NCBI GenBank assembly: GCA_902564235.1
Contig: CACFAG010000004.1
Coordinates: forward strand, 16,565 to 80,564
DNA: 64,000 nt
Direction of reading: 5' to 3'
DNA from: an uncultured Prochlorococcus sp.
GTDB lineage: Bacteria; Cyanobacteriota; Cyanobacteriia; PCC-6307; Cyanobiaceae
The notes under the pieces were generated by a model, which was given only the letters and a program-made list of their open reading frames with translations, was not told the origin of the DNA and searched no databases. Positions 6,707 through 50,936 of the stretch are shown one piece after another (position 1 is the stretch's first letter; each line of letters begins with the position of its first letter). The translations under genes were made by a program, and so were the position numbers.

Positions 6707-8125
6707 TTATGAATTTAAAACTTGAAGCTTTTGCAGTTGATTTAAATTTTCCATAACGCCATGATTTACGGCGGAGTGAGCCAATCGAAGAGCGCTAACT
6801 ACTGATAAAGATTTACTACTCCCATGACCGATAACGCAAATACCATTTACCCCCAGTAATAAAGCGCCTCCATGTTCAGCATGATCTAACCTTTTCTTGA
6901 TTCTAAGAAGATTACTTTTCAAGAAAGCTGAACCAACTTTCCCCCGCCTTCCTCGTGGCAGCTCTGATCTCAAAATATCTAATAAAACGCCACCTACAGA
7001 TTCAAGAAATTTTAATAATATATTTCCTGTAAACCCATCACAGACTACAACGTCAAAACTACCTGACAATACATCTCGCCCTTCACAATTACCTCCAAAA
7101 TAAAAACTTTTTTCAGAAGATAATAATTCAAATGTTTTTAGGGATAAATCATTACCTTTGCATTCTTCTTCCCCAATATTTAAAAGTCCAATTCTCGGCT
7201 TTTTTACCTGTAAGACATCTTTTGCATAAATGTTACCTAGAAGAGCAAATTGATGAAGATAAGATGGCTTGCAATCGGTATTTGCACCGACATCTAAAAC
7301 TAATACCGGGCGAGTTTGATCTCGTGTTGGAAATAATGCCCCTATAGCTGGTCTATCAATCCCTTTCAATCTACCAATTCTAAATATAGCAGCAGCCATC
7401 ATCGCTCCCGAATTTCCAGCAGAGTAGACAGCTTCAGCTTTATTATTTTTGACTAAATCCATTGCAACATTTATACTTGCATTTTTCTTTTTTCTCACTA
7501 CTGTAGCTTCCTCATTCATCCCAATAGGATCTCCACTATCAATTAATTCAAGACGATTATTTTCTATTTCATTTTCTAATAATTCTGCAAGACCCATTTT
7601 TTCTGCAGTATGTTTTACATTGTCGATTTTGCCAACAAACTTTATATTAATCGGAAATCTACTTATTGCTTCGAGGCAGCCCTCTAGAATTGGCCCAGGA
7701 GCATAATCTCCACCCATCCCATCAACTGCAATCCAAATTCTTTTAGATTGATTGCCATTTAGCTTATCTAAAGTATTATCACTATTTTGTAATCTTTTTA
7801 ATGGGTCAAAAACTAATGGCTGTAATGTATTTTTAGCCAAGGAACTAGCATTTGAAACTACGCTGGTAGCAGTACTAACAACAGATTCAGCGCTTGAAAC
7901 TACATTACCTGCAACATTACCTGCAACATTACTAGCAACACTACTAGCTGTGGTTACTACAGATCCAGCACCAGAAACCATATTTCCCGCAACATTACTA
8001 GCCGTTGCGGCAGAACTAGCAGCAGTATCTACCAAAGAAGTTACAGCCGAATTTCTTTTGTACCAAATAACTAATCTTCTAATAGCTCTGGACTTATTAT
8101 TTTTTTGCACTGTTTCTTTCACCAT
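6707..8125 (-). CDS. plsX: phosphate acyltransferase PlsX with about 128-residue repetitive N-terminal extension
   Basis: Core IWIAVDGMGGDYAPG...VYSAGNSGAMMAAA...HAEHGGALLLGV; N-terminus rich in A/S/V/N repeats. Confidence 0.93.
   Translation of the reverse strand: MVKETVQKNNKSRAIRRLVIWYKRNSAVTSLVDTAASSAATASNVAGNMVSGAGSVVTTASSVASNVAGNVAGNVVSSAESVVSTATSVVSNASSLAKNTLQPLVFDPLKRLQNSDNTLDKLNGNQSKRIWIAVDGMGGDYAPGPILEGCLEAISRFPINIKFVGKIDNVKHTAEKMGLAELLENEIENNRLELIDSGDPIGMNEEATVVRKKKNASINVAMDLVKNNKAEAVYSAGNSGAMMAAAIFRIGRLKGIDRPAIGALFPTRDQTRPVLVLDVGANTDCKPSYLHQFALLGNIYAKDVLQVKKPRIGLLNIGEEECKGNDLSLKTFELLSSEKSFYFGGNCEGRDVLSGSFDVVVCDGFTGNILLKFLESVGGVLLDILRSELPRGRRGKVGSAFLKSNLLRIKKRLDHAEHGGALLLGVNGICVIGHGSSKSLSVVSALRLAHSAVNHGVMENLNQLQKLQVLNS
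7826..8047 (-). repeat. Degenerate A/S/V/N-rich coding repeat (about 11-residue periodicity) in the plsX N-terminal region
   Basis: ASNVAGNMVSG / AGSVVTTASSV / ASNVAGNVAGN / VVSSAESVVST / ATSVVSNASSL; DNA has gcaacattacct tandem units. Confidence 0.75.
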
Positions 8126-8872
8126 TTATTTACCATCAAAAGGAGAAATATCGACAATACGTTGAAATAGATATCCTGTACCTCTTGCAGTCAATATCAA
8201 TTCAGGATTTGCTGGATCAGCCTCCAATTTTGATCTTAATCTTGATATATGAACATCCACTACTCTTGTATCTACATGTCTCTCGGGAGTATATCCCCAA
8301 ACTTCCTTCAAAATCTCTCCTCTACTAAATGGCTCTCCTGACCTACTAACCAAAAGCTCTAAAAGACTAAATTCCATACCAGTTAATCTAATCCTCTCAT
8401 CACTTTTAAAAACTTGTCTTCGATTTGTATCAATTTTTATATCCGTAACCAAAATTAAACCTGAATTAGGCATTCCAGGAATTTGTTCTTTGTCAATTCT
8501 TCTTAAGACACATCTAATTCTAGCCTCTAGTTCCTTAGGACTAAATGGTTTCACAACGTAATCATCAGCCCCTAATTCTAAACCTGTTATCCTGTCTGCA
8601 ACATCACCTAATGCAGTTAACATTACAATGGGGACATCAGAATCTTTCCTTAATTCTTGACAAACTCCGTAGCCGTCTAACTTTGGCATCATAACGTCAA
8701 GTACAACCAAATCAGGCTCATAATCTTTAAATAATTTTAGTGCTTCTTTACCATCACTTGCAGTTACTACTTTGTAACCAATCATGGAGAGTCGCGTCTC
8801 CAGAATTCTTCTAATACTTGCCTCGTCATCTGCGACAAGAATTGTTTCTTTAGTGTGACTAGATAAAGCCAT
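8126..8872 (-). CDS. rpaB: OmpR-family response regulator RpaB
   Basis: REC domain VLDVMMPKLDGYGVCQELR, GADDYVVKPFSPKELEARIR, winged helix HVDTRVVDVHISRLRSKLE. Confidence 0.93.
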   Translation of the reverse strand: MALSSHTKETILVADDEASIRRILETRLSMIGYKVVTASDGKEALKLFKDYEPDLVVLDVMMPKLDGYGVCQELRKDSDVPIVMLTALGDVADRITGLELGADDYVVKPFSPKELEARIRCVLRRIDKEQIPGMPNSGLILVTDIKIDTNRRQVFKSDERIRLTGMEFSLLELLVSRSGEPFSRGEILKEVWGYTPERHVDTRVVDVHISRLRSKLEADPANPELILTARGTGYLFQRIVDISPFDGK

Positions 8873-8978
8873 TTGTTTCTATTAGCTAATCAGTAAGAGA
8901 ATTAATTATTATCCTAATCTAACTTGTGGAGGGGCAATATCCCAAACATTCTAGATCTATTACTTTATTAAAAATTAA

Positions 8979-10328
8979 ATGTCTAGCAAATTGTCGACTT
9001 TTATTTGTCAAAATTGCGGAACTGAAACTTCTCAATACTTTGGGAAATGCCTTAATTGCAACTCATGGAATTCTATTGTGGAGGAAATTAAAAGTAAGAG
9101 ATCTAAATATAAAGAAATTAAAAATAATAAGAAATCTATTCCGTTTAATGAAATTTCATCAAAAAAAATATCAAGATTTACAAGTGGTTTTAGGGAATTT
9201 GATCGAGTTCTTGGAGGTGGAATAGTCCCTGGATCTGTTGTTTTACTTGGAGGAGAACCAGGTATAGGCAAAAGCACAATTGTGCTTCAATCAGCAGGAA
9301 AAATATCTCTCAATGAGAAGGTTTTATATATAACTGCAGAAGAATCTCTAGAACAAGTAAAAATTAGATGGGAAAGATTAAATCAAAATAGTAGTGATTT
9401 AAAAATTTTTGCAGAAACCAATTTATCCCTAATTATTGAAGAAATCAAACGTGTAAATCCAAGTTTCGCAATTATTGATAGTATTCAAGCCATCCATAAT
9501 AATGAGATGGATAGTTCACCAGGATCGGTTTCTCAAGTTAGAGCATGTTCATCTGAATTGCAAAATCTGGCTAAAGACAATAATATTGCCCTACTAATAA
9601 TTGGTCATGTAACAAAAGATGGTGCTTTAGCTGGTCCCAAAACTCTAGAGCATTTAGTTGATACAGTAATAAACTTTGAAGGAGATAATATTTCCTCACA
9701 TAGATTCCTAAGAAGTATAAAAAATCGATTTGGATCGACCTTTGAAATTGGAATTTTTGAAATGCTTGAAGAGGGTTTACGAGAGATAAAAAACCCAAGT
9801 TCAATTTTTACAAATAAAGAAAATATATCAGGTGTAACAACTACGATTACAAATGAAGGCGCTCGAGCATTAGCAGTTGATATACAAGCACTGGTAAATA
9901 AAACTTTCTACAGTAATCCGAGACGAACAACAACTGGACTTAGCATAAATAGATTACACCAAATTCTAGCTGTTATTGAAAAACACGTGGGTATAAAATT
10001 ATCAGAATTTGATTGTTATATAGCTACTGGTGGAGGTTTTGAGATTAATGATCCCTCATCTGACTTAGCTGTAGCAATATCAATTTTATCAAGTTTGAAA
10101 AATATTCCTCCTTTGGCAAGTAGTTCATTTATAGGGGAATTAGGTTTGAGTGGTCAAGTTAGAAAATCGAATAACCTTCGAAAAAAAATCGAGGAGGCAG
10201 CAAGACTAGGGATCAAAAATATCATAGTACCAAAATTAGAGGAGGATCTTAATAATTTTAAAAATCTAATTAATGTTAAAGAGACTTCTAATATTAAAGA
10301 GGCAGTTGATTATTCTTTTTCAAAGTAA
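8979..10328 (+). CDS. radA: DNA repair protein RadA/Sms
   Basis: Zn finger CQNCGTETSQYFGKCLNC, Walker A GGEPGIGKST, KNRFG motif. Confidence 0.96.
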   Translation: MSSKLSTFICQNCGTETSQYFGKCLNCNSWNSIVEEIKSKRSKYKEIKNNKKSIPFNEISSKKISRFTSGFREFDRVLGGGIVPGSVVLLGGEPGIGKSTIVLQSAGKISLNEKVLYITAEESLEQVKIRWERLNQNSSDLKIFAETNLSLIIEEIKRVNPSFAIIDSIQAIHNNEMDSSPGSVSQVRACSSELQNLAKDNNIALLIIGHVTKDGALAGPKTLEHLVDTVINFEGDNISSHRFLRSIKNRFGSTFEIGIFEMLEEGLREIKNPSSIFTNKENISGVTTTITNEGARALAVDIQALVNKTFYSNPRRTTTGLSINRLHQILAVIEKHVGIKLSEFDCYIATGGGFEINDPSSDLAVAISILSSLKNIPPLASSSFIGELGLSGQVRKSNNLRKKIEEAARLGIKNIIVPKLEEDLNNFKNLINVKETSNIKEAVDYSFSK

Positions 10329-10334
10329 AAAAAA

Positions 10335-10856
10335 TCAGAGGTACATATCTATTGAACTTCTTCCTGAATTTTTAAGCCAATTCTCAATATCAAGATACCC
10401 TCCAGGATATAATCTAACCGCTTTAGACCAGACTTCAGCAGCCTTATCAAACCAAATATCTCTTTGATCTAAATCGCCATTTTGTTCAGCATATCTTCCC
10501 CTTTTTTCATAAATTAAACCTATATTTTTAAGACATGATGGTTGTTTTGGATTTTCGACTAACGCCTTTTCATAAGTTTCAATAGACAAATCTTCTTCAC
10601 CGTTACTCATATATATTATTGCCATATTTTTAAGAGTCTCACCCCTATCAATTTTATTTTCTTCAAGTAATAAACTTTCTTTATAATACTCTAAAGCTTC
10701 CGAATAATCCCCATTATTTTGGGCGGCGAGGCCATCTCTATAATAGATATAAGCTTTTTTTTCCTTCTCTGCAATAGGCATTATTTTGACTATAGATTCG
10801 GCTATTACAGTAAAAGCTTTATCGATAAAATTGTCTCTGTTTTGATTACTTGGCAC
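10335..10856 (-). CDS. ycf3: photosystem I assembly protein Ycf3 (likely GTG start at 10856, 173 aa; track ORF extends to 10949)
   Basis: [26 protein letters not shown]...[27 protein letters not shown] protein. Confidence 0.93.
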
Positions 10857-10976
10857 TACTTTTAATCTAATTAAAATAAAATAGTAATTTAAAAAATAAC
10901 TATTTAAAAAGTCTATTACATTTATTATTATAGTTAAAAATAAAGTCAAGCATTAATTTGCTTCTATCAAAAAAAT

Positions 10977-49532: not shown

Positions 49533-50936
49533 CTAAACATAAAGATCAGCTCTAGGGTAGCCAATTCTCTTTTGTCTATCTATTCTACTCTTATATAGAG
49601 CCTGCCAAAGTGCACTTAATAGCAAAAGGATACCAAGTCTGCCCACAAACATACCTACAATAAGAATAAATTGGCCAAAATGATTTAATTTTGCAGTTAA
49701 ACCAATATCAAAACCAACTGTTGCAAATGCTGATATGCAAGTGAAGAGAATTTCTAAAAATGTGAACGATTCTTTTTTGACAAAGGTATTTGTTGTACTT
49801 AGCAGCATTGCCATTAAAAGAACGAAAAGCAAAGACCCTACTGTTATTCCAACTGCCTTAAGGATCACTTTATCTGAAATTAATCTATTGCTAATAATTA
49901 CATCTTTCTGACCTCTTAAAGTTGATCTAGTTGCAGCCATTAAAGCAATAAATGTTGTTGTTTTTATACCTCCACCAGTGCCTCCAGTACTTGCTCCAAT
50001 AAACATCAATGTCATCAATAACAAGAGACCAGTATCTGAAATAGAGTTCAAGGAGATTGGGTAATTTGTAAAGCCGGCAGTTCTTGCACTCACAGTTTCT
50101 AAGATTGAGGATAATAACCTTTCAAGAAAATTCAAATCATTAAAAAATTGACTACTAAGCAATGATTCAGTGATGAAGAATCCCAATGATCCAAAAAATA
50201 TTAGAGATAAACTTGTTCTAATAACCAGTCGGGAATGAAGACTCAATTTTTTATATGAGAGGTTTTTTTTATTACTCCAAATATCATCAAAAACACGCCA
50301 TCCCAGGCCACCCATGACAATGAGAAAAACAAATACACTATTAACCAATAAATTTGTCCTGTAGTCCTGAAGACTATTTGACCATAAAGAAAAACCTGCA
50401 TTGTTATATGCAGATATGCTGTGAAAAATTGAAGACCAAAGTCTTTCCCCATTATTTTGTATATCTACAAATCCAAAAGAATATAAAACAATTGCACCAA
50501 AAGATATGATACAAGTTGCAGTAATAGCAATGCTTTGAAAAGTTCGACCAATACCTCCAACTCCAAATTCATCTAAAGTCTTTCCTTTATCTAATCTAGT
50601 TCTAAGCTTTGTGCCCTTTACAACGAAACCTTGTAAAAATGTCGTAATTGCCATTAATCCTAGCCCACCTGATAAAAGCATAAAAGCCAAGAAAACTTGG
50701 CCAAAAAAATTTAAATCAACACCAACATCTATTATGGTTAAACCAGTAACTGTTATAGCAGAAGTAGATGTAAAAAATGCTTCCCACAAACCGACATTTG
50801 AAGATGAACATAGAGGGGAGCTTAAGATTAAAGTTCCAAATAAAATAATAAATAATCCTGTAACGATAGTAAATTGAGGTACAGATAGTTTTCTGTAAGA
50901 TTCTTTTAATTTATAAACATTACTTGTGAATTTCAC
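49533..50936 (-). CDS. KtrB/TrkH-type potassium transporter membrane subunit
   Basis: SAITVTGLTIIDVG, SAYNNAGFSLW, SARTAGFTNYP, GASTGGTGGGIKTTTF, ATVGFDIG. Confidence 0.93.
   Translation of the reverse strand: MKFTSNVYKLKESYRKLSVPQFTIVTGLFIILFGTLILSSPLCSSSNVGLWEAFFTSTSAITVTGLTIIDVGVDLNFFGQVFLAFMLLSGGLGLMAITTFLQGFVVKGTKLRTRLDKGKTLDEFGVGGIGRTFQSIAITATCIISFGAIVLYSFGFVDIQNNGERLWSSIFHSISAYNNAGFSLWSNSLQDYRTNLLVNSVFVFLIVMGGLGWRVFDDIWSNKKNLSYKKLSLHSRLVIRTSLSLIFFGSLGFFITESLLSSQFFNDLNFLERLLSSILETVSARTAGFTNYPISLNSISDTGLLLLMTLMFIGASTGGTGGGIKTTTFIALMAATRSTLRGQKDVIISNRLISDKVILKAVGITVGSLLFVLLMAMLLSTTNTFVKKESFTFLEILFTCISAFATVGFDIGLTAKLNHFGQFILIVGMFVGRLGILLLLSALWQALYKSRIDRQKRIGYPRADLYV

Follow-up and report, generated by a model that had tools for sequence, protein, structure and literature searches.

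The plsX locus and its product

The window, that is, the whole stretch of 64,000 nucleotides that was analysed, comes from an uncultured Prochlorococcus sp. and encodes a PlsX protein of 472 amino acids in a single open frame. Its product shares 89-94% identity with Prochlorococcus sequences, which indicates a Prochlorococcus-like genome. The catalytic core was recognised by Pfam (FA_synthesis, PF02504, residues 132-459, E 9e-103) and matched PDB entries 1vi1, 6a1k and 1u7n (E about 1e-66); the protein belongs to the PlsX phosphate acyltransferases according to TIGR00182 (367.7 bits, cut-off 243.4). The first-pass annotation had placed the start of the core near residue 130, in agreement with these domain limits, and about 130 residues precede it. 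Long-form PlsX as such is already captured by a curated NCBIfam model, NF010419 (PRK13845.1, 440 positions), whose name is silent on the extension; it recognised the window protein with E 4e-266, its positions 41-440 aligning with residues 66-472. The features of the locus are as follows.

6707..8125, minus strand: plsX, single open frame, 472 aa
6707..7738, minus strand: PlsX catalytic core, residues 130-472 (Pfam PF02504, with PDB and AlphaFold support)
6926..6961, minus strand: stem-tip hairpin loop, residues 389-400, LPRGRRGKVGSA, with Arg393 at the position of B. subtilis Leu254
7739..7789, minus strand: flexible linker, residues 113-129, dN/dS 0.32, AlphaFold pLDDT mostly below 50
7790..7834, minus strand: anchor 2, residues 98-112, KNTLQPLVFDPLKRL, the most constrained segment of PlsX, dN/dS 0.008
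7835..8011, minus strand: repeat tract, residues 39-97, a length-variable, uncharged helix of Ser, Thr, Asn and Gly with a stripe of Val and Ala
7902..7944, minus strand: tandem repeat in the DNA of the tract (12 bp, encoding a 4-aa unit), found by TRF, a site of copy-number variation
8012..8098, minus strand: anchor 1, residues 10-38, a basic and amphipathic helix containing Trp and Tyr, in which RAIRRLVIWYKRN leads into AVTSLVDTAASSA
8099..8125, minus strand: variable N-terminal head, residues 1-9, dN/dS 0.31 (residues 2-9)
8126..8872, minus strand: rpaB response regulator gene (NF045944, RpaB), its stop codon abutting the plsX ATG in the same frame

The genes follow one another in the order rpaB, plsX, fabH, fabD and a plsC-type acyltransferase gene. 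PlsX supplies PlsY with acyl phosphate for the first committed step in the synthesis of membrane phospholipids. Of 88 Prochlorococcus loci, 87 have rpaB immediately upstream of plsX and in frame with it; the plsX ATG comes straight after a stop codon in every one of the 88 (TAA in 84, TAG in four). Readthrough of this stop (8120-8130) in Prochlorococcus would yield an RpaB-PlsX fusion; in other members of the family rpaB and plsX mostly do not share a frame. A promoter inside plsX was considered and rejected, since promoter-like matches in 7600-9000 were no more numerous than in shuffled sequences (5 vs 5.0). Elsewhere in the window, the ycf3 frame (10335-10949) opens with a TTG about 31 residues upstream of the start of the model, and its true start is probably internal.

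Composition and helical periodicity of the N-terminal extension

Four parts make up the extension: the basic anchor RAIRRLVIWYKRN, an uncharged tract striped with Val and Ala, the nearly invariant LQPLVFDPLRRLQ motif and a linker that evolves fast. Selective constraint was estimated as dN/dS among 62 Prochlorococcus sequences with extensions of equal length, which gave 0.048 for anchor 1 (residues 10-38), 0.074 for the repeat tract (residues 39-97) and 0.054 for the core. The extension is translated, and selection on it is strong. Constraint within it is greatest in two parts that the first-pass annotation overlooked, the LQPLVFDPLKRLQ motif at residues 101-113 and the basic anchor at about residues 10-38. 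Residues 13-30 of anchor 1 have a hydrophobic moment (muH) of 0.315 and a charge of +5; for anchor 1 the charge is +5 to +7, and Trp and Tyr are present. Anchor 2 is constrained more tightly than the catalytic core itself (0.008 vs 0.054) and may be a docking motif.

AlphaFold pLDDT was mostly 83-97 in the core and 65-72 in the hairpin; for the arm, modelling of the full-length protein gave values below 50 and modelling of the arm alone about 52, helices being placed in both cases. The full-length model showed no confident docking of the arm on the core. The low scores of the arm are compatible with a segment that might change from disorder to helix on lipid. A PDB search with the arm gave no match, and a Pfam search of the extension at E values up to 1 returned only Tic110 (E 0.63, below its cut-off); in neither resource did the arm match the synuclein, perilipin or LEA families. 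Nor was a convincing arm-like domain found in non-PlsX proteins of the same genome, of relatives or of 61 family genomes. The best such match, an unidentified frame of 94 amino acids from another family (G553, E 8e-4, 40% identity over 50 tract residues), and the second, a frame with stops (E 0.0014), were both taken as low-complexity similarity.

The first-pass annotation had divided residues 42-96 into five 11-residue repeats with 11/3 helical geometry. The five quoted strings are indeed present there, but the tract has no 11-residue repeat: self-identity at lag 11 was 0.18 vs 0.16 in shuffles (p = 0.38), and a strict repeat of this length was rejected for the window protein on that ground. 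Identity exceeded that of shuffles at lags 4 (0.29, p = 0.002), 7 (0.33, p = 0.0002) and 18 (0.27, p = 0.015), and the repeat units are modules of 4 and 7 residues. The tracts of relatives contain heptads (AGSVVSS) and four-residue steps, and genuine tandem 11-mers (4+7) occur in one of them, L014, with the unit AGNVAESVVSS.

Strict 11/3 geometry is likewise not supported for the window protein, whose periodicity, near 100 degrees, is that of an ordinary alpha-helix. The hydrophobicity spectrum of its tract peaks at 99 degrees per residue, and because this peak stands at z = 5.4 relative to shuffles, the periodicity is not due to chance; of 117 distinct tracts with 30 or more residues, 116 have their maximum near 100 degrees per residue. 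Amphipathicity itself, as proposed earlier, was upheld. It is continuous and one-faced at 98-100 degrees, a range in which 98.2 and 100 degrees are not cleanly separated. On the helical wheel the centre of the hydrophobic face is 62-66% Ala and 27-37% Val, its flanks are occupied by Val, Ile and Met, and Ser, Asn, Thr and Gly form the opposite side. This wheel composition, together with lags 4, 7 and 18, corresponds to the Ala-centred 3-4 or 3-4-4 hydrophobic stripe of alanine coils. The tract has a muH of 0.261, a charge of 0.041, an aromatic fraction of 0 and no bulky hydrophobic residues. Replacements within it keep the polarity of the face in 33 of 38 cases (68% expected, p = 0.014), compared with 34 of 52 in the linker.

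The repeat seen earlier in the DNA, and the suspicion that its copy number varies, were both well founded. TRF located it at 7902-7944 with a period of 12, 3.6 copies and a 90% match, and the 88 Prochlorococcus sequences have tract lengths of 53, 57, 71, 75, 79 and 93 aa, with 12-bp steps between strains (71/75/79 aa). On the core tree of these 88 sequences at least 19 length changes are counted, a number that recombination of plsX could inflate. The highest TRF score of the window (68) belongs to a 24-bp tandem repeat in two copies at 50473-50520.

Across the family the tract takes 17 different lengths, from 24 to 93 aa, and these lengths share a helical phase: R is 0.80 at 100 degrees, 0.21 at 95 and 0.26 at 105, and none of 20,000 random length sets reached the observed value. 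Part of this quantisation arises because the duplicated units of 4 and 7 residues are near-whole turns; what it demonstrates is that the helix is continuous, not that each length was selected on its own.

Distribution of the extension and the residue at the stem tip

The extension was present in all complete N-termini examined from the Prochlorococcus/Synechococcus family. The lengths of PlsX frames were compared in 386 genomes of the phylum and, among the matches listed, were 439-510 aa in the family and 341-400 aa in other cyanobacteria. In all 47 other cyanobacteria whose N-termini were read residue by residue (the remainder being judged by frame length only), PlsX starts at the core, preceded at most by unrelated in-frame sequence. 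The extended family forms one fully supported clade in the core tree. Within it, genus g9 shows no more than a basic stretch, RRAIRRIRRIRRLSRQSR, and in genera g24, g32 and g44 anchor 1 stands without repeats. On the simplest reading, which is not firmly resolved by the tree (support of 85 for the deepest position of g9 and 29 for the repeat group), the basic anchor arose first and the repeats later.

The stem tip of the core also distinguishes the family. In B. subtilis, PlsX reaches the membrane via the tip of its hairpin and the L254A substitution sends it to the cytosol (PMC6702220), and Glu in the stem-tip loop prevents PlsX from localising to the membrane and impairs growth (PMC10146087). 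At the position equivalent to Leu254, as assigned by sequence alignment to the B. subtilis protein, all 155 family members have Arg, which gives ELPRGRRGKVGSA (family counts being phylogenetically non-independent); of the 47 other cyanobacteria, 46 have L, W, I, V or M there and one has Thr. The window protein, with Arg393, does not carry a stem-tip peptide of the B. subtilis type; its place among the PlsX enzymes is given by the core. The gain of the arm and the change from Leu to Arg fall on the same branch and so represent one evolutionary event, not a statistical association. In the core (6707-7738), 18 columns are fixed differently in the family and the stem branch is long, with 1.15 changes per column, suggesting that the enzyme was remodelled at the origin of the family. 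No earlier description was found in searches of the literature on PlsX with cyanobacteria and 'N-terminal extension' or among the PlsX/Prochlorococcus titles listed, and none of the repeats, the phase quantisation or the link to the stem tip in the literature searched.

Possible roles of the arm and comparison with known systems

We consider the chances about even that the arm is a family-specific device for membrane attachment, to which anchoring would have moved from the stem tip. Residues 10-38 would insert at the membrane interface as a basic amphipathic helix, and the repeat tract would prolong this helix along the surface, its narrow Ala/Val face providing weak, length-dependent adhesion or lateral packing of helices. 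The LQPLVFDPLRRLQ motif would then terminate the helix, and the loose linker would connect it to the core and leave the core mobile. In this way the arm might replace the stem tip, whose inserting residue became Arg, as the hydrophobic anchor, and hold the production of acyl phosphate beside the integral-membrane enzyme PlsY. The membrane-binding element proper is likely the basic Trp/Tyr anchor before the repeats, behind which the tract would form a weak helix of tunable length. PlsX of Synechocystis was localised to the thylakoid membrane (PMC6878006).

Only tentatively can this be extended to a swap of anchors at the origin of the picocyanobacteria, in which hydrophobic insertion by the stem tip of this essential enzyme was lost and a perilipin-like, phase-locked and length-adjustable arm was gained, the number of repeats tuning the affinity for, or the choice among, membranes amid densely packed thylakoids. 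If the arm is a tether, a whole and ecologically dominant lineage has re-invented the way in which PlsX finds the membrane. Natural strains, with tracts of 24 to 93 residues, offer a ready length series for studying lipid binding by weak amphipathic helices devoid of bulky residues.

Several points count against a membrane arm. The tract is nearly uncharged and has no bulky hydrophobics, and its look-alike Plin4 binds ordinary bilayers poorly, although its binding increases with length (PMC5889406). The Ala-centred face is also suited to helix-helix packing, and the Arg-rich stem tip could still bind anionic lipid. The low AlphaFold confidence for the arm and the single origin shared by arm and tip change weigh on the same side. 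A possible, if rather doubtful, explanation is that the tract forms a coiled coil centred on alanine, through which PlsX dimerises, clusters or docks a partner such as ACP, FabH/FabD, PlsY or PlsC, with LQPLVFDPLRRLQ as a partner-binding motif. The centre of the face contains only Ala and Val, as in close-packed alanine coils, the mixed steps of 7 and 4 residues are typical of coiled coils, anchor 2 is the most constrained segment, and plsX stands in a row with fabH, fabD and the plsC-type gene. However, polar positions filled with Ser, Thr, Asn and Gly and a charge of about 3-4% would be unusual for a soluble coiled coil, AlphaFold did not dock the arm confidently on the core, and the basic Trp/Tyr anchor is left unexplained.

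It is improbable that both ideas hold in part, with anchor 1 on the membrane and the tract serving mainly as a rigid spacer of adjustable length between anchor and core, which as a helix would span about 3.6-14 nm. Anchor 1 does exist without repeats in g24, g32 and g44, and the tract varies freely in length as the anchors do not, but a plain spacer needs no Ala/Val stripe strictly kept throughout the family. Functionless expansion of low-complexity sequence by replication slippage would account for the 12-bp units and the frequent changes of length; it is nevertheless very unlikely in view of the dN/dS of the tract, the helical phase retained over 17 lengths and the presence of the tract throughout a diverse family. 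That the extension is untranslated and PlsX begins at the core is hardly credible, and an internal start there, as raised in the first-pass annotation, was rejected on codons and conservation: residues 96-140 offer only TTG96, kept in 8 of 62 Prochlorococcus sequences, and Met137, the only usable start near the core, which lies inside the core motif GMGGD, the extension is under purifying selection, and in Prochlorococcus the plsX ATG directly follows the rpaB stop.

Membrane attachment by the arm, the preferred reading, invites comparison with several known systems. The 11-mer helices of alpha-synuclein and LEA proteins are also built of Val/Ala/Gly/Thr-rich repeats that likely fold on a surface, whereas the window PlsX has no Pfam match to them and no 11-residue identity. 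Unlike these helices, the tract also lacks lysine flanks. The lipid-droplet helix of perilipin 4 resembles the tract in being very long, weakly hydrophobic and variable in repeat number (PMC5889406, PMC8064757), and the two are close in muH (0.261 for the tract vs 0.257) and in aromatic fraction (0 vs 0.002) (PMC5889406). In contrast, perilipin 4 is made of 11/33-mer units with 15% charge and the tract of 4/7-mer units with 4% charge; the former acts on eukaryotic droplets, the latter belongs to a bacterial enzyme, and no Pfam match connects them.

With the PlsX of B. subtilis (6A1K, 1VI1) and E. faecalis (1U7N), the window protein shares the catalytic core, the hairpin stem and the context of phospholipid genes, but it adds the N-terminal arm of about 130 residues and has Arg in place of the hydrophobic residue at the stem tip. 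The amphipathic peptide 253-261 of B. subtilis (PMC6702220) has in common with the arm a proposed role in holding the enzyme at the membrane; it comprises nine residues at the tip of the hairpin, a site that in the window PlsX is without an inserting residue.
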